This document shows positions 3 through 31,786 of a DNA stretch of 64,000 bases, piece after piece. Position 1 is the stretch's first letter; each line of letters starts with the position of its first letter. A program made the position numbers and the translations under genes. Source of the DNA: Embleya scabrispora (GTDB lineage Bacteria; Actinomycetota; Actinomycetes; Streptomycetales; Streptomycetaceae). A model generated the notes under the pieces. The model had not been told where the DNA came from, ran no database searches, and saw only the letters and a list, made by a program, of their open reading frames with translations. Location of the stretch: the NCBI RefSeq assembly GCF_002024165.1, contig NZ_MWQN01000001.1, positions 5,456,001-5,520,000 on the forward strand. Direction: 5' to 3'.

Positions 3-1232
3 GTCGACCATCTGATCAACCACGCGCACGACCCGCTCTACCACGACGTCCTGATCATGGCGGTCGCCCGGACCCAGGACGACCCGTCGCGACAGCGGGA
101 GTTGCTGGACGGTTTGATCGCGCGAGCGGAGACGGACGAGGAGCATCGTGCCCGGTTGTGGCTGCTCGGCGTCGCGTGTGTGTCCGGAGCGGGCATGGTG
201 GACCCGGAGCCCGCGGCCCGGTTCCGGGAGGAGACCGCCAAGCTGCTGCCTCCGCAGGACGCGCGTGCGGCGGAGGATTTGGCCACCGCGGGGGAGTTCG
301 TGCTCGATCTCCTCGCGGACCTGACCCGGACGCAGCGAGTCTCGGACGAGATCGCGACGAATATCGTGCGGGTGGCGCGCCGAATCGGAGGCGAGGCGAC
401 GATCCCGCTGCTGCGTCGATTGTGTGACCGGGACTCGACCCGGATCCGCCTGCAACTGTTGGGAATGTGGGAAACCCTCACGGATCGGGAGCGCTACTAC
501 GAAACGGTCTTGACCCACGTCAGGATCGACGACTGTCATGTGCCGATCCCCGATCCGGCGGCTCTGGGACTGCTCGCCGGACGTCCGGACGTGCGGAGCA
601 TCAACCTCCCGGCCGAACTGTCGGAGCTTCCCGTGTCGGCGCTCGCCGCGCTTCCGCGGCTCGATGCGCTCGGAGTCGCCGACACCTCGATCACCGACCT
701 CGGCCCGCTGGCCGAACTGCCGCAGGTCACCTCGTTGACGCTCGGCCCCGCACAGCGCGCGGAGCCGGCGCTGTTGGCCCCCCTGCCGTGGATCACCGCC
801 TTGCACTTCAACGGTGACCGCTTGGTGGGGAGTGTGCGCGTCCTGCCGGAGGCGCCGAACCTGAGCCACATCTATCTACACGACACGGGCGTTCGAGACC
901 TGTCGGGTCTGACGAAGTACCCGAACCTGCGCATGCTGGGCATGGTTTCCACCCCGGCCACCGACCTGGGCGCACTACGCGACTCACCCACGCTCGAAAC
1001 GTTGCTGATCGACGGATCCCTGGTGACGGACCTCTCCCCGCTGATCGACCTGCCACGCCTTACCCACGTGGGCATCGCCGCGTGCCCGGTAACCGACCTG
1101 AGCCCCCTGGCCGACCTCCCGGCCCTGGAGTGGCTGCGGATCGACAAGACACAGCGGGACCACCTCGGCGCGCTCGCCGACCGGGTCACCGAAGGCCGAC
1201 TCGAACTGGACGTGACCGCGGACTTCGACTGA
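3..1232 (+). CDS. C-terminal part of an NLR/NACHT-like protein with leucine-rich repeats (5' end outside window)
   Basis: The frame is open from the first bases of the window, so this is the 3' part of a longer gene; the ATG at 57 is internal, because the residues before it (VDHLINHAHDPLYHD) continue the same helical region. About the first 170 visible residues are helical and resemble the segment that follows the NTPase in streptomycete NACHT proteins. From there to the end run roughly eight leucine-rich repeats of 21-23 residues, internalin-like, with the recurring pattern TDLSPLxDLPxLxxLxI. The Walker motifs would lie to the left and are not visible, so the NACHT/STAND assignment is inference from the C-terminal part. 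Proteins of this class are ligand-triggered oligomerising sensors, some of them antiphage; the repeats would be the sensing part. The next gene converges on it with 15 bases between. Confidence 0.7.
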   Translation, partial: VDHLINHAHDPLYHDVLIMAVARTQDDPSRQRELLDGLIARAETDEEHRARLWLLGVACVSGAGMVDPEPAARFREETAKLLPPQDARAAEDLATAGEFVLDLLADLTRTQRVSDEIATNIVRVARRIGGEATIPLLRRLCDRDSTRIRLQLLGMWETLTDRERYYETVLTHVRIDDCHVPIPDPAALGLLAGRPDVRSINLPAELSELPVSALAALPRLDALGVADTSITDLGPLAELPQVTSLTLGPAQRAEPALLAPLPWITALHFNGDRLVGSVRVLPEAPNLSHIYLHDTGVRDLSGLTKYPNLRMLGMVSTPATDLGALRDSPTLETLLIDGSLVTDLSPLIDLPRLTHVGIAACPVTDLSPLADLPALEWLRIDKTQRDHLGALADRVTEGRLELDVTADFD

Positions 1233-1247
1233 CCCCCTCGACCGGAC

Positions 1248-1583
1248 CTACTCCTCCGACGGCGTCGCCACCCGCAACCGGTTCCCGTCCGGATCCCGCA
1301 GGTGCACCTCCCGCGCCCACGGCTGCTCCTCCACCGCCACGCCGAATTCACGGGCCACCTCATCCACATCGGCGACCCACACATACACCAGCGTGTCCGG
1401 GCTCGCATCGCCCGCATGCTCGCTGAGAAACAGCTTCACCTCACCCCTCGCGACCTCCACGAAGGCCGGAAAGTGCGGCTCGAAGCGATGCTCCCACCGC
1501 TTGACGAACCCCAGACGGCCATACCAGGCAACGGACTCGGCGGCGTCGACCACGCGCAGGATCGGGATGGCTTGTTCCCTCAT
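1248..1583 (-). CDS. VOC / glyoxalase-bleomycin resistance family protein
   Basis: A single-domain vicinal-oxygen-chelate protein of 111 residues. It begins IPILRVVDAAESVAWYGRLGF, the usual first beta strand and helix of the fold, and ends with the typical VHLRDPDGNRLRV strand carrying the metal or ligand-side residues. Family members bind small ligands (bleomycin-type drugs) or act as glyoxalases and dioxygenases; nothing here fixes the substrate. I chose the ATG at 1583 because GAGGG lies 8 bases upstream and the family alignment starts there. An in-frame ATG at 1613, also with a GAGGA upstream, would add ten residues. It stands alone, convergent with the LRR gene and divergent from the aldehyde dehydrogenase. 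Confidence 0.82.
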   Translation of the reverse strand: MREQAIPILRVVDAAESVAWYGRLGFVKRWEHRFEPHFPAFVEVARGEVKLFLSEHAGDASPDTLVYVWVADVDEVAREFGVAVEEQPWAREVHLRDPDGNRLRVATPSEE

Positions 1584-1732
1584 AACAGACACCCTCGCAT
1601 CCCACTCCGACATCCGGCCGGTTCCTCGCCGAGTGCCGTGTCATCCGGGGGCCAGAGGGTAACGGCTCGGCGGAGGCCCGGGCGGCCCGCTCGGTGCCCA
1701 GCGCACGCACCATCCGCATCCGTGGAGGACCC

Positions 1733-3106
1733 ATGGCCATCGCGTCCGTCAATCCTGCTACCGGTGAGGTGATCGAGGAGTTCGCCGAGATGGGGGAGGT
1801 TGAGATCGATGCCCGGATCGGGCGGGCCGATGAGGTGTTTCGGGGGCATCGGGGGGACTCGTATGAGGCTCGGGCCCGGGCCATGCGGCGGGTTGCCGAC
1901 ATCCTGGATGCGGAGCGGGACGAGGTTGCGGCGGTCATGACCGCCGAGATGGGGAAGACGCTTGTTGCCGCTCGGGCCGAGGTGGGCAAGTGTGCTCGGC
2001 TGTGTCGGTTCTATGCCGAGCGGGCGGCGGGGTTTCTCGCGGACGAGCCGGCCGATGCCGAGGCCGTGGGGGCGCGGCGGGCCTATCTGCGGTATGAGCC
2101 GCTCGGGCCGGTGTTGGCGGTGATGCCGTGGAACTTTCCGTTGTGGCAGGCCATGCGGTTCGCGGCGCCGGCGTTGATGGCGGGCAATACCGGGCTGCTC
2201 AAGCATGCGTCGAACGTGCCGCGCACCGCGCTGTACATGGGTGAGTTGTTCACCCGCGCCGGCTTTCCCGAGGGGGCGTTCCAGACGTTGCTGATCGGGT
2301 CGAAGCTGGTCGAGCGGGTGTTGTCCGACCCGCGCGTGGTGGCCGCGACGCTCACCGGCAGCGAGGGGGCCGGGCGGTCGATCGCGGCGATCGCCGGGCG
2401 CGAGTTGAAGAAGACCGTGCTCGAACTGGGCGGCTCCGATCCGTTCCTGGTGCTGCCCTCCGCCGACGTCGAGGCCGCCGCGCGGACCGCGACCACGGCC
2501 AGGACCCAGAACAACGGGCAGAGTTGCATCGCGGCCAAGCGGTTCATCGTGCACGCCGACGTCTACGACGCGTTCGCCGAGGCGTTCACCGCGAACATGG
2601 CCGCACTGCGGGTCGGCGACCCCACCGCCGAGGGCACCGACGTCGGCCCGCTCGCCCAGGAGCAGGGGCTGCGCGACGTCACCGAGCAGGTCGAGGACGC
2701 CCGGGCCAAGGGCGCCCGGATCCGGTGCGGCGGCGAGCGTCCGGCCGGCCCCGGCTGGTACTACCCGCCGACCGTGGTCGCCGACCTGACCCCGGACATG
2801 CGGATGTACACCGAGGAGGTGTTCGGGCCGGTCGCCGGGCTGTACCGGGTCGCCGACCTCGACGAGGCGATCGACCTCGCCAACGCCACACCGTTCGGCC
2901 TCGGGGCCAACGCCTGGACCACCGACGAGGACGAACAGGCCCGCTGCATCGCCGAGTTGGCCGCCGGGGCGGTGTTCGTCAACGGCATGGTCACGTCCTA
3001 CCCGGAGCTGCCCTTCGGCGGGATCAAGTCCAGCGGCTACGGCCGCGAACTCGCCGCGCTCGGCATCCGCGAGTTCTGCAACGCCAAGACGGTCTGGGTG
3101 GGCTGA
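1733..3106 (+). CDS. NAD(P)-dependent succinate-semialdehyde dehydrogenase-type aldehyde dehydrogenase
   Basis: Aldehyde dehydrogenase of 457 residues, the length of the short GabD1-type enzymes that oxidise succinate semialdehyde to succinate in the GABA shunt. The general base is seen in LELGGSDPF (Glu231) and the nucleophile in NNGQSCIAAKRF (Cys265). The N-terminus IASVNPATGEV is that of the family. The start is the ATG at 1733, five bases after GGAGG; longer in-frame starts upstream lack a ribosome binding site. The gene runs convergently into the thioesterase, with only 14 bases between stop codons. Exact substrate is inferred from family resemblance, not shown by the sequence. Confidence 0.92.
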   Translation: MAIASVNPATGEVIEEFAEMGEVEIDARIGRADEVFRGHRGDSYEARARAMRRVADILDAERDEVAAVMTAEMGKTLVAARAEVGKCARLCRFYAERAAGFLADEPADAEAVGARRAYLRYEPLGPVLAVMPWNFPLWQAMRFAAPALMAGNTGLLKHASNVPRTALYMGELFTRAGFPEGAFQTLLIGSKLVERVLSDPRVVAATLTGSEGAGRSIAAIAGRELKKTVLELGGSDPFLVLPSADVEAAARTATTARTQNNGQSCIAAKRFIVHADVYDAFAEAFTANMAALRVGDPTAEGTDVGPLAQEQGLRDVTEQVEDARAKGARIRCGGERPAGPGWYYPPTVVADLTPDMRMYTEEVFGPVAGLYRVADLDEAIDLANATPFGLGANAWTTDEDEQARCIAELAAGAVFVNGMVTSYPELPFGGIKSSGYGRELAALGIREFCNAKTVWVG

Positions 3107-7971: not shown

Positions 7972-8036
7972 GCGGGCGCTCGCGCCGATCTGTTCGCGGG
8001 CGCTCGTGCCGACCCGCACCCGGGCGCTCCCGCCGG
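7972..8036. repeat. Three 17-bp tandem repeats with 24-bp period
   Basis: GCGGGCGCTCGCGCCGA at 7972, a near copy at 7996 and a more diverged copy (CCGGGCGCTCCCGCCGG) at 8020, just after the stop codon of the DUF5685 gene. Function unknown. Confidence 0.6.
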
Positions 8037-8181
8037 GAGTGGCGTATCCGACAAGGTGTCGGAAAGCCTAGAAAATCCCCGAACTGGCATTCGACGGTAA
8101 AAACGCCCAACCGTAACGTCTTGGCAAAGCATCTTCGGTCCGATTGACCCTGCTTTCGCCGCCCAACCACGATCAGCGATG

Positions 8182-8209
8182 ACCGGGTGTCGTGCGATCG
8201 GCACCCGGT
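8182..8209. promoter_or_regulatory. Inverted repeat in operon leader
   Basis: Perfect arms ACCGGGTG and CACCCGGT separated by 12 bases, ending 79 bases before the first start codon of the polysaccharide operon. It could be an operator or a leader stem-loop. Confidence 0.4.
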
Positions 8210-8288
8210 GTCACCGATCTCGGGCCGGTTCCGCCGGCCCGATGCCGTGTGCTCTCCGGGGCACGCGGCAGACGGGAGGGGGCCGTTC

Positions 8289-9104
8289 ATGCACGACACG
8301 ACGCACGCGACGCACGCGAAACGCCCATTGCCCCGGATTGCCGAACTGCCCGGCGGCGCGCCGGTACGAGCCGGGCACGCACCGGCCGACCAGGTGTCCC
8401 GGGACCGGGTCACCCTGGTCGTGCCGGCCCGCAACGAGGCCCGCAATCTGCCCTGGGTGCTCCAGCAGATACCCGAAGGCGTCGACGAGGTCCTGCTGAT
8501 CGACGGGGACTCCACCGACGCCACCTCGCTGATCACCCGCCGCTACCTGCCGGCCGCCCGGGTCATCCCGCAGTCCGGCCCCGGCAAGGGCAGCGCCCTG
8601 CGCACCGGATTCCGGCACGCCACCGGCGACATCATCGTCACCATCGACGCCGACGGCAGCATGTCGCCGCACGAGATCCCGCACTACGTGCACTTCCTGG
8701 GCAACGGCTACGACTTCGTCAAGGGCTCCCGGTTCGTCGGCGGCGGCGGATCGCTGGACCTGACCGCGCTCCGCAGCCTCGGCAACCACGCGCTGATGGC
8801 CCTGGTCAAGCGGCTGTACGGATATCGGCTCACCGACCTGTGCTACGGGTTCTGTGCGTTCCGCCGGTGCTTCCTGGAACACCTGGACCTGCGTTCGACC
8901 GGCTTCGAGATCGAGGCCGAGATGATCGTCCGGGCCCTACGCGCCGGGCTGCGGATCGCCGAGGTACCCAGCCTCGAACTGCCGCGCCGGAGCGGCCGAT
9001 CCCACCTCAACGCGCTCCGCGACGGACACCGGGTGCTGCGCACCGTCCTGCGCGAGCACGCCGGCGCCGCCCGCCGCCCGGAGCGAGCGGGGGAGGACGC
9101 TTGA
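8289..9104 (+). CDS. GT2 family glycosyltransferase (DPM-synthase-like)
   Basis: A 271-residue cytoplasmic GT-A glycosyltransferase. The N-terminal strand VTLVVPARNEARNLPWVL, the nucleotide-binding LLIDGDSTDAT and the metal-binding DADG (TIDADGSMSP) are all present, followed by a C-terminal acceptor region with LTDLCYGFCAFRR. The closest class is polyprenyl-phosphate sugar transferases such as dolichol-phosphate mannose synthase, so a likely job is charging a lipid carrier, but it lacks the C-terminal membrane helices some of these have. ATG at 8289 follows GGGAGGGGG; in-frame codons upstream are rejected. It is the first gene of a six-gene run in which each gene overlaps the next by 4 bases. 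Confidence 0.92.
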   Translation: MHDTTHATHAKRPLPRIAELPGGAPVRAGHAPADQVSRDRVTLVVPARNEARNLPWVLQQIPEGVDEVLLIDGDSTDATSLITRRYLPAARVIPQSGPGKGSALRTGFRHATGDIIVTIDADGSMSPHEIPHYVHFLGNGYDFVKGSRFVGGGGSLDLTALRSLGNHALMALVKRLYGYRLTDLCYGFCAFRRCFLEHLDLRSTGFEIEAEMIVRALRAGLRIAEVPSLELPRRSGRSHLNALRDGHRVLRTVLREHAGAARRPERAGEDA

Positions 9105-19644: not shown

Positions 19645-21921
<2,277 letters not shown>

Positions 21922-22017
21922 GCGGGTGCTCCTGCGGCTCGAAGCGGTCGTATCGACACGACTCGACACGACCCTGATGCCCCGTACGTTACGCCCCCGG
22001 GTTTCGCCCACCGCAGC

Positions 22018-23193: not shown

Positions 23194-23319
23194 CCTCGTG
23201 TGCTCGGAGAGCGACCCGACAGCCGGACATGTACCACCGAAGCCGGAAACCGCCGGTCGCCCGAAGGGGAAGTGACCCGACAGTACGCGCCGGTCCGATT
23301 GCGGAGGGTGGGTAATGCG

Positions 23320-23353
23320 GTAAGCCCGCCGCGGGCAACCGCGACGGGCTTAC
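23320..23353 (-). terminator. Stem-loop terminator
   Basis: GTAAGCCCG at 23320 pairs with CGGGCTTAC at 23345, and inside it CGCGG pairs with CCGCG around a 4-base loop (one C/A mismatch). It starts 37 bases beyond the stop of the minus-strand solute-binding protein gene. Confidence 0.75.
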
Positions 23354-23390
23354 GCTTGAGGATTTCTTACGCCGTGTGGGTGACACCGCG

Positions 23391-25457
23391 TCAGGGGCGG
23401 TATTCGCTGAAGCTGCCCCCGATCCTCGCGTCCTGCTCGGCGCCGGCGACGACCGGGTCGGCGCCGCCCAGCACCTTTTCGGCGAAGTCCTTGAGCGGGA
23501 CGGCCGACCAGCCCGGTGCGGCCGGGTACGGCTTGCCCTGGGCGAGCGCGGTCAGCGTCGCGGCCCGGGCCGGGTTGGCGGCGCCCGAGGTGGTGGTCAG
23601 GCCGCCGAGCGCCGGGACCGTCTCGTTCTCGTTCGCCCAGCGCTCCTGCCACACCGACGAGGCCATCACCCGAAGCAGATTGGTCGCCCCGATCGGATGT
23701 CCGGTCTTCGCCGACACGGCCAGCACACCGGCCCACACGCCGACCGTCGCGGCCTTTCCGGCGGTGGTCCCGGGCATCGGGAAGGCGCCCAGGTTGCGGG
23801 CCGTCTCGGGGGAGGTGCGCAGCAGTTCGGCCACCACCCAGTCCGGCTGGATCGCCATCGCGGCCTTGCCGGCGGTGAGTACGGCGGTGATGGTGCCGGC
23901 CGGGTCCTTGTACTCCTCGACGTTCTTCGGCGCGCTCGAATAGGACTGGAGCTTTTGGAAGAACGCGATGCCCGCGCGGCCCGCGTCGGTGTTCAGGCGC
24001 CCGGCCCAGCGCTCGTTCTGCTGCACGGCTATCTCGCAGCCGTTCGCGTACAGGCACGCGGCGATCGTCTGCCAGGCCCGGCCGACCAGGTGCAGCGCCT
24101 CGAACTTCGGGTCGCTCGCATAGTGCTGCTCGAGCTTGTCCAACTGGGTGATCCACTCGTCGCGCGTGGTGGGCACCACGAACCCGGCCGGATCGCACAG
24201 CCGCTTGTCGTACACCACGACCGGGGCGTACACGTCCATCGGCAGCGCGTACAGCTTGCCGTCGACGGTGCAGGCGGCCCGGGCCGCCGGATGCCAGGCG
24301 TCCGCGTTCAACCGCTTCGCGTACGGGGTCAGGTCGAGCAGTGTGCCCTGCTTGACCCGGCGGGCCAGGCCCAGGCTGTCCACCTGGAAGAGGTCGGGGC
24401 CGTTGCCCGCGGCGAGTGCGGTGTCCAGCTTCGACGGGTCGGCGATCTCCTGGACCTCGCTGCGGAGGGTGCCGAGCGGGTCCACCTTGACCAGTGCGGC
24501 GGCCAGGTCGGTGTTGGTCTTCGCCTGGTCGACGCCCGGGGTGAAGAGCTTGTCCAGCCACATGGTGAGCGTGTACGGACCGCTCTCGGCGGTGGGCGGC
24601 TCGGGGGCGGTCGGCGGCCCCGGCGGCACCGGGGCGGGGGTGGTGGGATCCGGCTTGGGCGGCGGGGCGGCGCTCTTGTCGTCGTCCCGAGTGAGCAGCC
24701 ACGCCGTGACCCCGCCACCGGCCGCGACGGCCGCCGCGACCGAGCCGGCCACGATCATCCGGCGCCGGGAGGTGCCGGCGCCTCCGGCGGGCTGCGGCGG
24801 TTGCGGGCCCCAGCCACCGGGCGCGCTCGGGTACTGCGGCGGCCCGCCGGGGTAGTGCGGCGCGGCCCCCGGGTACGACGCGCCGGCGCCATACCGCGCC
24901 CCCTGGCCGGGGGACTGCGCGGGTTGCCCTGCCGGGTACTGCGGTGCCCGGCCGGGGTGCTGCACGGGCTGCCCTGCCGGGTACTGCGGTGCCTGGTTCG
25001 GGTATTGCGGTGCCTGGCCGGGCGGCTGTGCGGATTGCCCCGCCGGGTACTGCGGAGTCCGGCCCGGGGGCTGCGCGGATTGCCCTGCCGGGTATCGGGG
25101 TGCCTGGCCCGGGGGCTGCATGGGCTGCCCGGCCGGGTACTGCGGTGCCTGGCCGGGCGGGTAGCCCGGTGTCGCCCCCGCGGGCGGTTGCGGCACCGGG
25201 CCTGCCGGGGGCTGCACCCCCGGCGGGTACCCGGGGGCCTGGCCGGCCGAAAAGTGTGGGGCCGCGCCTCCCGGCCGGCCGGGAGGCGGGCCCGCCGGCT
25301 GTTGCCCCGCCGGCCCGCCGGCGACGTGCGCGGGCGGACCGGCCGGCTGCCCAGGGGGCGGCGGCACGGCCATTGGGGCATACGTGGGCCGAGGCGGTGG
25401 TTCGGCCGACGGGTCGTCGTCCCTCGACGCGGGTGGTTCCTCGTTCCACGACGACAC
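23391..25457 (-). CDS. Membrane-anchored solute-binding protein with proline-rich repeat N-terminus
   Basis: A 688-residue protein. Residues 1-220 or so are a proline/glutamine-rich tract with many copies of a PPGQAPQYPAGQ-type 12-residue repeat. Then comes SRRRMIVAGSVAAAVAAGGG, a single membrane segment with a twin-arginine-like flank, followed by an extracellular family-1 solute-binding domain (VVVYDKRLCDPAGF, AWQTIAACLYANG, GKAAMAIQPDWVV, GAFPMPGTTAGKAATVGVWAG). No transporter permease or ATPase gene is nearby, so a sensing or scaffolding role is more likely than uptake; this is inference. The start is GTG at 25457, seven bases after GGAGGAG, which is better than the ATG at 25490. It is paralogous to the next gene upstream and probably in one operon with it (97-base gap). 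Confidence 0.85.
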   Translation of the reverse strand: MSSWNEEPPASRDDDPSAEPPPRPTYAPMAVPPPPGQPAGPPAHVAGGPAGQQPAGPPPGRPGGAAPHFSAGQAPGYPPGVQPPAGPVPQPPAGATPGYPPGQAPQYPAGQPMQPPGQAPRYPAGQSAQPPGRTPQYPAGQSAQPPGQAPQYPNQAPQYPAGQPVQHPGRAPQYPAGQPAQSPGQGARYGAGASYPGAAPHYPGGPPQYPSAPGGWGPQPPQPAGGAGTSRRRMIVAGSVAAAVAAGGGVTAWLLTRDDDKSAAPPPKPDPTTPAPVPPGPPTAPEPPTAESGPYTLTMWLDKLFTPGVDQAKTNTDLAAALVKVDPLGTLRSEVQEIADPSKLDTALAAGNGPDLFQVDSLGLARRVKQGTLLDLTPYAKRLNADAWHPAARAACTVDGKLYALPMDVYAPVVVYDKRLCDPAGFVVPTTRDEWITQLDKLEQHYASDPKFEALHLVGRAWQTIAACLYANGCEIAVQQNERWAGRLNTDAGRAGIAFFQKLQSYSSAPKNVEEYKDPAGTITAVLTAGKAAMAIQPDWVVAELLRTSPETARNLGAFPMPGTTAGKAATVGVWAGVLAVSAKTGHPIGATNLLRVMASSVWQERWANENETVPALGGLTTTSGAANPARAATLTALAQGKPYPAAPGWSAVPLKDFAEKVLGGADPVVAGAEQDARIGGSFSEYRP

Positions 25458-25554
25458 GGTGCGGCTCCTCCGAGAGTGGGCGACAGGCATGGCCGGGTGC
25501 CATGCCTGCGCAAACCCTAGGCCGCGCGGTGACCGTTGCCGCCGGGGAGATCCG

Positions 25555-28053
25555 TCAGGTGGGGTCGACGCCGAATTCGCGGGCCACGATCGTGTTCGCC
25601 GCGGCGGCCGCCGCCAGTGGGTCGGTGCCGGCCAGCGTCTGCCGGGAGAGTTCGGTCAGCGGACGCTCCGACCACCCCGGGGCGACGGGATACGCCCGAC
25701 CGCCCACCGGCAGCGCGGACAGCGCGGCCTGGATCATCGGATTGTCCGACGGCACCGCTCGATCCAGGCCGCTGCGGACCGGAACCAGTCGGGCCTCCGT
25801 CGCGATCCGGGCCCGCCAGCGGTCGGTGGCGACCAGGGAGAGCAGGTCGATCGCCGCCTCCTTGAACAGGCTCGCCGCCGACACCGCCAAGACCGTGCCG
25901 CGCACCCCGACGGCGGCCGGCTTGCCCGCCGTGCGGCCCGGGATCGCGAACGCGCCCAGCACCGGGCGCAGCGCCGGATTCGCCGCCACCACCGCGTCGT
26001 ACAGCGAGGCGTCGGCGATCACCGAGGCGACGCCGCCCTTGGCGACGCGGGCCGTGGTCGCCGGGTCGTCGTTGCCCGCCCCGACCGCGTCCGGAGCGTA
26101 CGACTGGAGGTGTCGGAAGAAGCGGGCCCCCTCGACCGATCCGGGCAGGTCGAGCGTGCCGCGCCAGGCGTCGCCCTCCTGCACCGCGATGGTCCCGTCG
26201 TCCTCCCACACGCACGAGGCCAGTACCGGCCAGGCCCCGCCGGGTACGTACAACGCGCGATAGTCGGGGTTGGTCGCGTTGGCCTGGCGCAACTTCTCCA
26301 GGTCCGCGACCCACGTCACCCGGTCGGTCGGCACGCCCACCTGCGCGGCCTGGAACAGCCCCTTGTCGTAGAGCACCACGGGCACGCCGGCGCCCAGGGG
26401 CAGCGCCATGATCCGGCCCCCCGAGGTGACCGCGGCCCGCACGGCGGGGAACCAGCTGCCGCCGTCGAACCGGCTCTGCAGCGGGGTCAGGTCCATCACC
26501 AGGTCGGCCGCCTTGAACCGGGCCAGGGCGAGCAGGTCGAGCTCGAACACGTCGGGCCCGCGACCCGCGCGCAGCGCCTGTTCGAGGGCCTGGGTGTAGC
26601 CGGCCCTCGGCTGTACCCGACTGCCGATCCGCAGCCCGGAGCCGGTGGTGCTCATTTTGCCGAATTCCAGGCCGAGTTCGCCGAGCAGCGCGGCGGGGAC
26701 CAGGCTCTCCGTGGTCCAGACGGTGAGTTCGCGGACCGCGCCGGGCACGGCCGGCCCCGGCGTGCGTGCCGTCGAACTCGGCGCCGGCGCCGACGGCTTC
26801 GGGGCGGCCTTGGGCGTCTTGTCGCCACCCCGGCTCAGCGCCCATGCCGCACCGCCGCCGCCCAGGACGGCGGCGCCGGCCGCGACGGCGAGGAAGCCGC
26901 GGCGGGACTTGGCCCGGGAGGAGCCGGCGGCCCGGTGTGCGCGGGTGGGCGGTTCGCCTCCGGCGGGCGGTGCGGCGGATTCGGTTCGGGGCGCGCGGTG
27001 GGTCCGGGCCGGGGTGGTGGGCGGCGCCGGTTCCGGCTCGGGGACAGGCGGCGCGGCGGGGGAGGGAACGGTCGCGGGCGTGGGCTCGGGCTCGGCCGGC
27101 GGGGTCGCGCCGGGCGGCGGGGCCGGTACGGTGTCGGCCGCGTACGGCTCGCTGCCGGGCATCGGCTCGGGCGGCTCCCACGGGTTGGCCACCCGCTCGG
27201 CCACCCACGTCGCGGTGGCCGCGGGCAGCCAGCTCGGGCCGGGAGTGCCGGCCGCCACCCGGGCCACCTCCTCCGGACTCGGCCGCCGGTCCGGGTCCTT
27301 GACCAGGCAGGCCGCGATCAGGTCGCGCAACGACGCGGGCACGTCACCGAGTTCCGGCTCGCCCTCGGCGACCCGGTCGGCCGGCGAGCGCTCGTCGCCC
27401 CGGTCGAACGGGCCCGCGCCGGTCGCGGCGAACACCAGCACCGACCCGAGCGAGAACACGTCGCTCGCCGGACCCACCGTCAGATCCCGTACCTGCTCCG
27501 GCGAACGAAAGCCGGGGGAGTCGAGCACGGTGCCGATCACCACGCCGTCGGCGGTGACCGACGAGCCGAGCGAGGCGTGCGCGATACCGACGTGCGGCAG
27601 CCGCGGGCCGTTCGGATCGAGCAGCACCGCGCCGGGGTCGAGCCGGCCGTGGTACAGCCCGGCGGCGTGCAACAGGCCGAGCGAGGTCGCCAGTTCGCCG
27701 GCCAGCGCGCGCAGCGAATGGCCGGGGAGCAGGCCGTGCCGACGGACCGTCTCGGCCAGCGTCGGACCGGGCACGTGCGTGGTGGCGTACCACAGTTGCC
27801 GGCCGGTGGTGTCGGCGTCCAGGACCACGGCGGTGCCGGGACCGGGCAACCGCCGCGCGGCGTCCACCTCTTCGCCGAAGCGGGCGCGGAAGCCGGGATC
27901 ACGCCCGAGGTCGGCCCGGATCACCCGCACGACGACGGGGGCGTCGTCGGGCGCGGCGCCCAGATAGGTCCGAGCCGTGGTCCCTTCGCCGAGCCGGCCC
28001 ACCAATCGGTAGGCGCCAACGCTCGAAGGGTCCTCGTCGTGCAGCGGCCGCAT
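25555..28053 (-). CDS. Pseudokinase-transmembrane-solute-binding protein fusion
   Basis: An 832-residue protein. Residues 15-280 have the Hanks-type kinase fold: glycine loop GRLGEGTTARTYLG, helix-C glutamate near 62, SPGFRSPEQ for the APE segment. But the catalytic residues are gone: the VAIK lysine is Arg43, HRD-L-K is H135-G-R137-L-D139, and the DFG aspartate is His154. So it is a predicted pseudokinase. A proline-rich linker follows to about 385, then a Tat-like SRRGFLAVAAGAAVLGGGG membrane segment, then a solute-binding domain (VVLYDKGLFQAAQVGVP, GAFAIPGRTAGKPAAVGVRG) close to that of the downstream gene. Outside binding could be signalled to a cytoplasmic scaffold domain. ATG at 28053 has GGAG nine bases upstream; the frame extends to 28104. 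Confidence 0.88.
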   Translation of the reverse strand: MRPLHDEDPSSVGAYRLVGRLGEGTTARTYLGAAPDDAPVVVRVIRADLGRDPGFRARFGEEVDAARRLPGPGTAVVLDADTTGRQLWYATTHVPGPTLAETVRRHGLLPGHSLRALAGELATSLGLLHAAGLYHGRLDPGAVLLDPNGPRLPHVGIAHASLGSSVTADGVVIGTVLDSPGFRSPEQVRDLTVGPASDVFSLGSVLVFAATGAGPFDRGDERSPADRVAEGEPELGDVPASLRDLIAACLVKDPDRRPSPEEVARVAAGTPGPSWLPAATATWVAERVANPWEPPEPMPGSEPYAADTVPAPPPGATPPAEPEPTPATVPSPAAPPVPEPEPAPPTTPARTHRAPRTESAAPPAGGEPPTRAHRAAGSSRAKSRRGFLAVAAGAAVLGGGGAAWALSRGGDKTPKAAPKPSAPAPSSTARTPGPAVPGAVRELTVWTTESLVPAALLGELGLEFGKMSTTGSGLRIGSRVQPRAGYTQALEQALRAGRGPDVFELDLLALARFKAADLVMDLTPLQSRFDGGSWFPAVRAAVTSGGRIMALPLGAGVPVVLYDKGLFQAAQVGVPTDRVTWVADLEKLRQANATNPDYRALYVPGGAWPVLASCVWEDDGTIAVQEGDAWRGTLDLPGSVEGARFFRHLQSYAPDAVGAGNDDPATTARVAKGGVASVIADASLYDAVVAANPALRPVLGAFAIPGRTAGKPAAVGVRGTVLAVSAASLFKEAAIDLLSLVATDRWRARIATEARLVPVRSGLDRAVPSDNPMIQAALSALPVGGRAYPVAPGWSERPLTELSRQTLAGTDPLAAAAAANTIVAREFGVDPT

Positions 28054-28210
28054 GGCAGAAACTCCGTTTCGCTCACCGGTGTGAACGGTGCCGAAGTCTG
28101 CCATGAAGCGCGCCCGCTTCCGGCCACCCGTTCGGCGGCGCCCCCGCCGAGCCCGTCATATCCGTAAAACACCGGGCGGCGTGCCTCGGAGCGGCTCGCC
28201 CGCGCGGCAG

Positions 28211-28242
28211 GGGACCCGCGCGCGGCGCCGCGCGCGGGTCCC
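28211..28242. terminator. Perfect 32-bp palindrome, terminator
   Basis: A 16-base arm beginning GGGACCCGCGCGCGGC is followed without spacer by its exact reverse complement, 8 bases beyond the stop codon of the minus-strand acyl-CoA dehydrogenase. A very stable GC-only stem of the kind that ends transcription in streptomycetes. Confidence 0.85.
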
Positions 28243-30715: not shown

Positions 30716-31786
30716 GTGCGTGCATATCGCCACGTGGCGCTGGTGTTGATCGCCTTGCTGGGTGCGGCCCTGATCATCTTCCCGCTGGCCGCCGGCCTGC
30801 CGAAGAAGACGCAGGCCGTCGACGACCTGACCAATGCCTTCCGGCCCGCCTTCACGCCGCAGGCCATCGAGCAGAGCCGCACCGACCTGAAGACCATGAA
30901 CGAGATGCTGGAGCAGCTCCAGGCGGAGACGCTGCCCGGACTCGCCCAGCAGGCCGGGATTCCCACGCCCTCGCTGATCAACCTGATGGGCACCACCGCA
31001 CCCGAGGTCGGCAAGGGTCTCAAGGAGATCCCGACGATCATGCCGCGGTTCAACAAGCTCGCGGGCACGATGGACGCGCAGGCCGGGAACTTCCGTCAGG
31101 CGGACGACATCCCCTCCGCGGACGCGCCGAACACGGCGGTCACCTACCTCTATCTGATCCCGGGCATCGTGCTGCTCGTGGTGGGCGCCGGCGGGCTGCT
31201 GTTCTCCTTCGTCGGATCGCGCGCGGTGGGAAGCACGGTGTGCCTGGTGCTCGCCGCCGTGGTCGGCCTGGGCATGGTCGTGGGTACCTTCGCCACCGGC
31301 GTGATCGGCAAGACCAAGGCCTCCGAGAAGATGTTCACCGCGTTCCGGCCGACCTTCACCGACGCCGGGTACAAGCAGGCGCACGACGACCTGGACACGC
31401 TGGGCAAGATGGCCGTCGGGATGAAGACCAAGTCCATCCCGTCGATGGCCGCGCTCCTGCGCAAGCCGGTCCCGCAGTTCACCGCCGAGCTGGCCACGCA
31501 GTACCCCAAGGTCGGCAAGGGCCTCGCGGAGACGGACCGGATCCTGGCCAAGTTCAACGCCCTGGTCGAGAACATCGGCGCCAACATCGACACCTTCGAC
31601 AAGGCGGACAGCATCCCCAACAAGGACACCGAGGTCTCGGTCATGCCGTGGCTGCTGCTCGGCCCGGGTGCGGCGGTCCTCCTGCTGGCCGGCGTCGCGC
31701 TGGTGATCCAATTCACAGGGCGCGGCAACGGCTCCGCCGACCCGAACACGGGGGCGCCGAGGCAACCGTCCGGTGCGGCGGTCTGA
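30716..31786 (+). CDS. Membrane protein with duplicated ectodomain, unknown function
   Basis: A 356-residue protein that I do not recognise. It has four hydrophobic segments (about 7-27, 143-163, 170-192 and 310-331), giving two similar extracytoplasmic domains. The two are an internal duplication: FRPAFTPQAIEQSRTDLKTM near residue 42 matches FRPTFTDAGYKQAHDDLDTL near 210, and each ends with a PKVGKGL/PEVGKGL-type stretch and a '(A/D)xADxIPxxD' segment before the next helix. The soluble parts are helix-rich without cysteines. GTG at 30716 lies behind GGGAGA. It stands alone, divergent from the acyl-CoA dehydrogenases. Confidence 0.82.
   Translation: MRAYRHVALVLIALLGAALIIFPLAAGLPKKTQAVDDLTNAFRPAFTPQAIEQSRTDLKTMNEMLEQLQAETLPGLAQQAGIPTPSLINLMGTTAPEVGKGLKEIPTIMPRFNKLAGTMDAQAGNFRQADDIPSADAPNTAVTYLYLIPGIVLLVVGAGGLLFSFVGSRAVGSTVCLVLAAVVGLGMVVGTFATGVIGKTKASEKMFTAFRPTFTDAGYKQAHDDLDTLGKMAVGMKTKSIPSMAALLRKPVPQFTAELATQYPKVGKGLAETDRILAKFNALVENIGANIDTFDKADSIPNKDTEVSVMPWLLLGPGAAVLLLAGVALVIQFTGRGNGSADPNTGAPRQPSGAAV

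Follow-up and report, generated by a model that had tools for sequence, protein, structure and literature searches.

A conserved pseudokinase fused to a solute-binding ectodomain in Embleya: a candidate membrane receptor that may signal without phosphotransfer

We analysed a stretch of 64,000 nucleotides of an Embleya scabrispora assembly (GCF_002024165.1, contig NZ_MWQN01000001.1, positions 5,456,001 to 5,520,000; the whole stretch is called the window), and in particular a minus-strand gene at 25555-28053. The predicted protein of 832 amino acids, a putative receptor, consists of a kinase fold followed by a proline-rich linker, a weak membrane helix and a sugar-type solute-binding protein (SBP) domain. 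The open frame spans 25555-28104; the ATG at 28053 sits eight bases behind a GGAG, and the opening MRPL is common to the protein and its six orthologues, which makes this ATG the conserved start. Two Pfam domains scored above the curated cut-offs, namely PF00069 (65.1 bits, E 8.8e-18, cut-off 31.7) and PF01547, or SBP_bac_1 (44.6 bits, E 2.5e-11, cut-off 26). A single charge-free stretch follows the linker, at about residues 386-407. The first-pass annotation, made from the sequence alone, had read the same order of kinase fold, proline linker, one membrane helix and SBP, and the Pfam matches, structural models and composition agree with it. The coordinates of the features are given in Table 1.

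Table 1. Features of the receptor gene and its surroundings (positions in the window; residues are those of the receptor)
Feature	Position	Strand	Evidence or distribution
Pseudokinase-SBP receptor gene	25555..28053	-	Open reading frame, start, PF00069 and PF01547, six orthologues elsewhere
Kinase-fold domain, residues 15-264	27262..28011	-	Pfam; AlphaFold2; PknA/PknB matches, Z about 24-28
Arg43 for VAIK Lys	27925..27927	-	Arg in 4/4 Embleya-type rows, Lys in 3/3 related-genus rows
HGRLDP for HRDLKP, residues 135-140 (Arg137 for catalytic Asp)	27634..27651	-	HGR in 7/7 branch rows
His154 for DFG Asp	27592..27594	-	H/H/G/T in Embleya-type rows, Asp in 3/3 related-genus rows
Four-residue activation-segment insertion, residues 176-179	27517..27528	-	7/7 branch rows
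Pro-rich linker, residues 289-384	26902..27189	-	31% Pro over 289-385
SRRGFL twin-arginine-like motif and weak G/A-rich membrane helix, residues 383-409	26827..26907	-	
SBP_bac_1-type solute-binding ectodomain, residues 434-832	25558..26754	-	Pfam; AlphaFold2; MalE-type matches, Z 36-42
Sister gene: Pro-rich N terminus, SRRRMI motif, weak helix, paralogous SBP	23391..25490	-	38% identity to receptor SBP
FdhF/YdeP-family molybdopterin oxidoreductase, conserved neighbour	19645..22011	-	TIGR01701, 969 bits
14-bp perfect GC hairpin between the acyl-CoA dehydrogenase gene ACAD2 and the receptor gene	28211..28242	.	No T-tract; possible upstream unit boundary
Strong hairpin 3' of the sister gene	23317..23355	.	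Possible downstream unit boundary

The AlphaFold2 model of the kinase domain, built from a 33-row alignment, had a mean local confidence score (pLDDT) of 89.6, and its sole stretch below 50 was the activation loop (162-176). When structure matches were ranked among the 1000 top Foldseek chains, the best solved match was PknA of M. tuberculosis (4x3f_B; Z 27.6, root-mean-square deviation (rmsd) 2.6 over 252 residues), and PknB matched with Z about 24-26. Model and matches confirm the kinase fold, for which the comparison with PknB had been suggested at first pass. The glycine loop is kept as GEGTTA, the helix-C glutamate as Glu62 and the APE segment as SPE. The three replacements that had been read from the sequence, Arg43, Arg137 and His154 for the VAIK Lys, the HRD Asp and the DFG Asp, were found again under identical numbering from the start at 28053, and in a phmmer alignment to PknB (3f61) R43, HGR and HVG stand opposite Lys, HRD and DFG. 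By these residues the protein is not an active Hanks-type Ser/Thr kinase; it is a bacterial pseudokinase in the general sense of a PF00069 kinase fold with at least one of the three residues lost.

Orthologues were searched for with the SBP domain in 21 genomes and then with an alignment (A1) in 200 genomes of the family and 394 of the class, scoring nine candidates per genome to about 1e-59 in the former and four per genome to 1e-70 in the latter. Among the matches listed, kinase-bearing SBP fusions were seen only in two genera (codes g1 and g2), and more diverged SBP_bac_1 fusions could escape such searches. The closest public relatives of this genome are Embleya hyalina (96%) and E. scabrispora (79%). 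Both hold an orthologue of the receptor, as do Streptomyces sp. SID3343 and three genomes of the related genus g2 (G004, G028 and G038), which together with the present protein gives a branch of seven members. Four of these are Embleya-type, including the one filed as Streptomyces sp. SID3343, where the contig (L012) ends inside the receptor gene. Among plasmid records, 197 of 72,556 matched, none at 80% coverage (the best, Embleya sp. NBC_00888, at 74%); no relative was found in viral contigs.

The active-site positions were compared in an alignment of 33 rows (A5), made up of the seven branch members, one intact kinase-SBP paralogue and 25 kinases of this genome, which has 59 PF00069 matches in all; not included were the L064 and L065 rows and, from this genome, the kinases at L024, L029 and L030 (two rows). 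The position of the HRD Asp is Arg in all seven branch members and Asp in all 26 other rows, and the catalytic-loop Lys (position 139) and Asn142 are lost throughout the branch. The VAIK Lys is Arg in the four Embleya-type rows, and Lys in the three g2 rows and in 25/26 of the others. Similarly, the DFG Asp is replaced by H, H, G and T in the Embleya-type rows and is kept in 3/3 g2 rows and 25/26 others. Glu23, Gly136, Arg137 and Arg183 are identical in the seven members, and column 177 of the activation-segment insertion is a gap in the 26 rows outside the branch. The lone exception at both the VAIK Lys and the DFG Asp is L023 (G000:C1:1729300-1732500, 246-2120, minus strand), itself pseudokinase-like: its VAIK Lys is Arg, the helix-C Glu is lost, the DFG Asp is Gly and the HRD Asp is kept (HGD), and Pfam gave no domain in it besides the kinase.

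Conservation of R43, R137 and H154 in orthologues had been proposed as a check on the pseudokinase assignment, and it stood in part: Arg137 is a conserved mark of the branch, Arg43 holds on the Embleya side only, and His154 is no such mark. Orthologues with intact catalytic residues would, by the same annotation, speak against the assignment. The three g2 proteins do hold two of the residues, but none of them keeps the HRD Asp, and no orthologue with all three was found. Since HGR is present in all seven members and the VAIK Lys and DFG Asp are lost in Embleya-type rows only, the simplest order would place the loss of the HRD Asp, together with Lys and Asn of the catalytic loop, before the split of the genera, and that of the VAIK Lys and DFG Asp after it, on the Embleya side. 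With half-intact orthologues in g2 and two fully intact kinase-SBP paralogues (described next), the receptor appears to represent a secondarily inactivated branch within a family of active receptors.

Directly downstream of the receptor gene lies a sister gene (Table 1), whose product had no Pfam match and no kinase domain that we could see; a GTG at 25457, which follows GGAGG, may be the better-placed start of this gene. The same arrangement was observed in E. hyalina and E. scabrispora, that is, in all three Embleya loci where both genes are readable. Intact kinase-SBP fusions were found in two genomes. G004 has one as its second fusion, at L066:14186-17044, beyond the oxidoreductase gene of the locus and with Lys, HRD and DFG in place (PF00069 120 bits, SBP_bac_8 84.7 bits), while Embleya sp. 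NBC_00888 has one at L064:8001-10637 on a 5.7-Mb replicon. These paralogues share with the receptor a related kinase, the same SBP clade and the same type of anchor, but they keep the catalytic residues and are without the four-residue activation-segment insertion. For G028 and G038, the 19.5 kb read showed no second SBP of the receptor clade, and among the matches listed (for G038 the stronger ones) no further one reached the strength of the clade members.

Two trees describe the descent of these proteins. The kinase tree had 40 rows (rows below 50 bits and L013 were left out), and the seven members formed one clade with support of 100/98, with neighbours that were not firmly placed. The SBP tree had 37 rows, none below 80 bits, of which 25 were free SBPs (23 loci, L078-L100, and one each from this genome and G004). 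Here, 12 SBPs, from six receptors, four sisters and two intact fusions, made a clade at 100/100 apart from the free ones; one of the 12 rows (G003) ends at a contig end before any anchor. Within it, the six receptor SBPs formed a clade at 100/99 and the sisters grouped with the intact fusions at 93/83, in a tree where seven rows (all six pseudokinase SBPs and one sister SBP) have an odd letter make-up and long branches join the two intact fusions. The simplest history would be one fusion and a duplication, followed by decay of the kinase in one copy and its retention or loss in the other; the kinase tree is neutral on this.

The first-pass annotation had also noted that no ABC (ATP-binding cassette) transporter genes lie nearby. 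As far as permeases go this was borne out: none of the 93 PF00528 places in the genome falls within the window (C1:5456001-5520000), the nearest beginning at 5353787 and 5749042, while ABC ATPases were not searched for. By contrast, a free SBP at C1:2263246 adjoins permeases at 2261212 and 2262039. The ectodomain thus has the SBP fold of ABC transporters and no accompanying PF00528 genes. We rejected the idea of a transporter SBP that has lost its partner genes, given that the receptor-group SBPs form their own clade apart from the free SBPs.

Selection was estimated from pairwise comparisons of the receptor genes. For the kinase domain, omega by NG86 was 0.10 with E. hyalina, 0.28 with E. scabrispora, 0.28 between these two, and 0.23 with SID3343. 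The same comparisons gave 0.30-0.52 for the linker, which is poorly kept (57% identity to E. scabrispora), and 0.15-0.26 for the transmembrane and SBP part. An intact kinase used as a control (L002) had 0.16, 0.20 and 0.18 across the same three genomes. By YN00, omega was 0.05-0.12 for the dead kinase domain and 0.03-0.04 for the control. Therefore, the dead domain is clearly under purifying selection, in most comparisons looser than that on the one intact control. In the otherwise variable linkers of the three g2 proteins (L066 about 8000-8400, L101 and L102) we observed an acidic, IIEAELVDDDEPLPPRA-like stretch that could be a docking motif; no IIEAELVDDDEPLPPRA-like acidic stretch was seen by eye in the Embleya linkers.

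The ectodomain was modelled by AlphaFold2 from a 36-row alignment with a pLDDT of 90.6. It matched the Xanthomonas MalE protein 3uor_A with Z 42.2 and rmsd 2.5 over 376 residues, and reached Z 36-42 with many proteins that bind maltose or beta-glucosides; the fold matches span maltose, beta-glucoside, sulfoquinovosyl and UgpB proteins. The nearest solved sequence in a profile comparison (A6) was the protein of 7c6z, titled as beta-glycosides-binding. Trp608, invariant in 36/36 rows, aligns with Trp177 of the 7c6z series.

The helix between linker and ectodomain is weak and rich in glycine and alanine (Kyte-Doolittle hydropathy over 18 residues, KD18, 1.61), with SRRGFL ahead of it and Arg408 and lysine residues behind. 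Such features are those of an internal twin-arginine translocation (Tat) signal as judged by sequence. RRGF or RRRF was present in 8/8 kinase-SBP fusions of the clade with a readable anchor. We scanned 18 other kinases of the 59 genomic matches with Pfam; together with the receptor, six of the 19 have an SBP or PQQ (pyrroloquinoline quinone) propeller domain and 13 do not. The motif RRx[FLMVI] preceded the helix in 5/6 of the former compared to 3/13 of the latter (Fisher p 0.04), and the combination of motif and weak helix (KD18 under a post hoc cut-off of 2.2) occurred in 5/6 compared to 0/13 (p 0.0005); the rows are paralogues, partly picked after the motif had been seen, so that the p values are descriptive only. 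The sixth ectodomain kinase, L016, has a propeller, and neither helix nor motif was found in it; the stretch scored as a helix for L015 is a low-complexity region and probably not a helix. L006, L007, L008, L014 and L065 also have a weak helix preceded by an internal RRx[FL]L-like motif, unlike most kinases with a small or no recognised ectodomain. The propeller- and SBP-bearing receptor kinases are possible Tat-inserted proteins. For comparison, the Streptomyces Rieske protein has a Tat signal within its chain, in which a helix of low hydrophobicity is followed by positive charges (PMC5449189 and PMC13186574). The receptor ectodomain is probably inserted folded by Tat through its internal RR motif. 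Both this motif and the kinase-less sister gene were absent from the first-pass annotation.

Taken together, we favour, with some reserve, a single-span receptor in which an SBP ectodomain, inserted by Tat, signals through a non-catalytic kinase fold, and which arose from an active receptor by duplication. The outer SBP would bind a small solute and close, and the closure would be relayed through the one short helix and the flexible proline-rich linker to the cytoplasmic kinase fold. The latter, unable to transfer phosphate, would act by binding or allostery on a further protein in the cytoplasm, which might itself be one of the cell's many intact kinases. In origin, an active kinase-SBP receptor would have been duplicated and one copy would have lost its catalytic residues in the two steps given above. 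Because these residues are lost and the domain is nevertheless kept by selection, the receptor probably signals by binding partners and not by phosphorylation, as had been suggested at first pass.

Several observations weigh against this. All three g2 orthologues retain Lys43 and the DFG Asp, so these proteins may still bind ATP, and ATP binding may be general to the branch. In pairs with E. scabrispora, the dead domain had an omega of 0.28 compared to 0.18-0.20 for the intact control by NG86, and 0.11-0.12 compared to 0.03-0.04 by YN00. In the kinase tree the intact fusions join the dead branch only in a group with support of 75/95 that includes L005. Finally, of W41, W67, E117 and W177, the positions named in the titles of 7c6x-7c71, only W177 is kept (in the profile alignment, by eye). 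For this reason a small solute of the carbohydrate or oligosaccharide type is the most likely ligand only in the sense of the likeliest class.

The retention of Lys43 and the DFG Asp in g2 would also suit an atypical active enzyme that binds a nucleotide and phosphorylates, AMPylates or glutamylates through a rewired site (Arg43, Asp139 and others), and there are precedents in PMC12599244: ATP has been modelled into a pseudokinase with a beta-3 Arg, and activities of other kinds are described for SelO and SidJ. Still, we regard such an enzyme as unlikely, with the HRD Asp lost in 7/7 members, along with Lys and Asn of the catalytic loop, and the metal-binding residues lost as well on the Embleya side. 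Moreover, within the branch D at position 139 is confined to the Embleya-type rows, the related genus having S, A or G there. Even less credible, and in our view very improbable, is a decaying gene whose kinase part is a relic and in which the SBP alone, or nothing, matters. The stepwise loss of catalytic residues would fit decay, as would the poorly conserved linker and a constraint looser than that on the intact paralogue in two of three matched pairs. However, the frame is open in all seven members (in L012 to the contig end only), omega of the kinase domain is well under 1, and the four residues named above are invariant in 7/7 rows.

The alternative that we take most seriously, while leaning against it, is a heteromeric pair, in which the pseudokinase-SBP protein works only with the adjacent SBP paralogue (in Embleya) or with an intact kinase-SBP paralogue, similarly to pseudokinase/kinase co-receptors. 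The sister lies directly downstream in each readable Embleya locus, within a unit that is bounded by hairpins in this window, and G004 has its intact kinase-SBP in the same locus. On the other hand, the grouping of sisters with intact-fusion SBPs reaches just 93/83, and two of the three related-genus genomes show no paralogue within the sequence read. An obligate pair is for the latter reason less likely than a receptor addressing a general partner.

Several known systems resemble the receptor in part. Two NCBI proteins of Streptomyces cadmiisoli named as bifunctional Ser/Thr kinase/ABC-SBP (WP_112443064.1 and WP_112443384.1) have the same order of kinase, membrane segment and SBP in one chain, and share with it the N-terminal kinase, linker, RR motif, weak helix and C-terminal SBP. 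They differ by a Peripla_BP_6 ectodomain and by a kinase that in both proteins has Lys, HRD and DFG in place; the two examined lie on Streptomyces plasmids. Within the present genome, L014 (G000:C3:826000-829500, 291-2468, minus strand) combines an intact kinase with the amino-acid-type SBP_bac_3, an RRRLL motif and a weak helix, and L006, L007 and L008 are kinases with PQQ propellers. Given these fusions, swapping of ectodomains on this kinase family is ordinary.

Among the pseudokinase families outlined in PMC12599244, ActPs1/Act1 and ActPs2 are actinobacterial and changed at the three catalytic residues, as is the receptor. The ActPs2 kinases further share with it a beta-3 Arg and transmembrane regions C-terminal to the kinase. 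Yet their HRD Asp is Asn, DFG is usually deleted, and about 90% have insertions of 32 and 250 amino acids; the receptor, with HGR, HVG and no such insertions, was rejected as a member. A listed Act1 example (U5EIF8) reads VVVR / Hqrlrads / EIG. Compared with that published description only, the ActPs1 character of change at all three residues is found on the Embleya side (three of three), and in g2 one residue is changed. The main text of PMC12599244 mentions no SBP ectodomain ('solute' and 'substrate-binding' have 0 occurrences). The best NCBIfam match was AfsK (NF053615), at 167.7 bits against a cut-off of 1300 bits and over profile positions 3-425 of 809 only; with the score far under the cut-off, membership was rejected.

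The closest precedent for SBP-to-kinase signalling in actinobacteria is GlnH-GlnX-PknG (PMC6069109 and PMC9769921). There, as suggested for the receptor, an extracytoplasmic SBP has been proposed to steer Ser/Thr-kinase signalling across the membrane, but there it involves three separate proteins, an amino-acid ligand and an active kinase. Non-catalytic roles of bacterial pseudokinases include the EssB/YukC scaffold and the recruitment of FhaA by MviN, although the functions of these proteins are mostly unknown, according to PMC12599244. Kinase-SBP fusions with another SBP family and bacterial pseudokinase families are known already. Within titles and abstract openings, with thin coverage of subscription papers, we found no description of a pseudokinase-SBP receptor, nor of a conserved pseudokinase branch with an SBP_bac_1 ectodomain.

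A wider picture can be offered tentatively, and we hold it to be rather doubtful as a whole: a family of sugar receptors, spread over two genera and inserted by Tat, in which phosphotransfer disappeared from one duplicate in a fixed order and this copy became a non-catalytic subunit, while the other stayed an active kinase or shed its kinase domain. If true, it would provide a natural series that runs from an active receptor kinase to a receptor that only binds, the sensor staying the same. The SBP that forms the input domain is soluble and can be assayed, and kinases in three states (intact, half-degraded and fully degraded) share one ectodomain family, so the role of a dead receptor kinase would be directly testable. 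If the internal twin-arginine anchor is real, receptor kinases join the proteins assembled by Tat, and the anchor would explain how folded propeller and SBP ectodomains are exported to the cell exterior.

The receptor locus is syntenic in the two genera. It comprises a membrane protein gene (30716), two acyl-CoA dehydrogenases, the receptor, a globin/FAD reductase and the FdhF/YdeP-family molybdopterin oxidoreductase. The 19.5 kb read for G028 gave no match to a dehydrogenase or globin, and there the receptor adjoins the oxidoreductase; the most persistent set is therefore the receptor, the oxidoreductase and the membrane protein gene. The latter (30716-31786, plus strand) is divergent, stands beside the receptor in both genera and encodes 356 amino acids with several membrane helices by eye; its product had no Pfam or NCBIfam match. 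The receptor and sister genes, lying between the two hairpins, may form one transcription unit. A consensus scan, which says little in this organism, listed neither hairpin as a minus-strand terminator and gave no sigma-70-type promoter.

We also observed that the E. hyalina NBRC 13850 assembly has the locus twice, with the same coordinates on two contigs (L009 and L010, the latter left out as a duplicate), which may be an assembly duplicate or a very recent duplication. Streptomyces sp. SID3343 (L012) has the Embleya locus at 78-91% protein identity, and this strain may be a misnamed Embleya.

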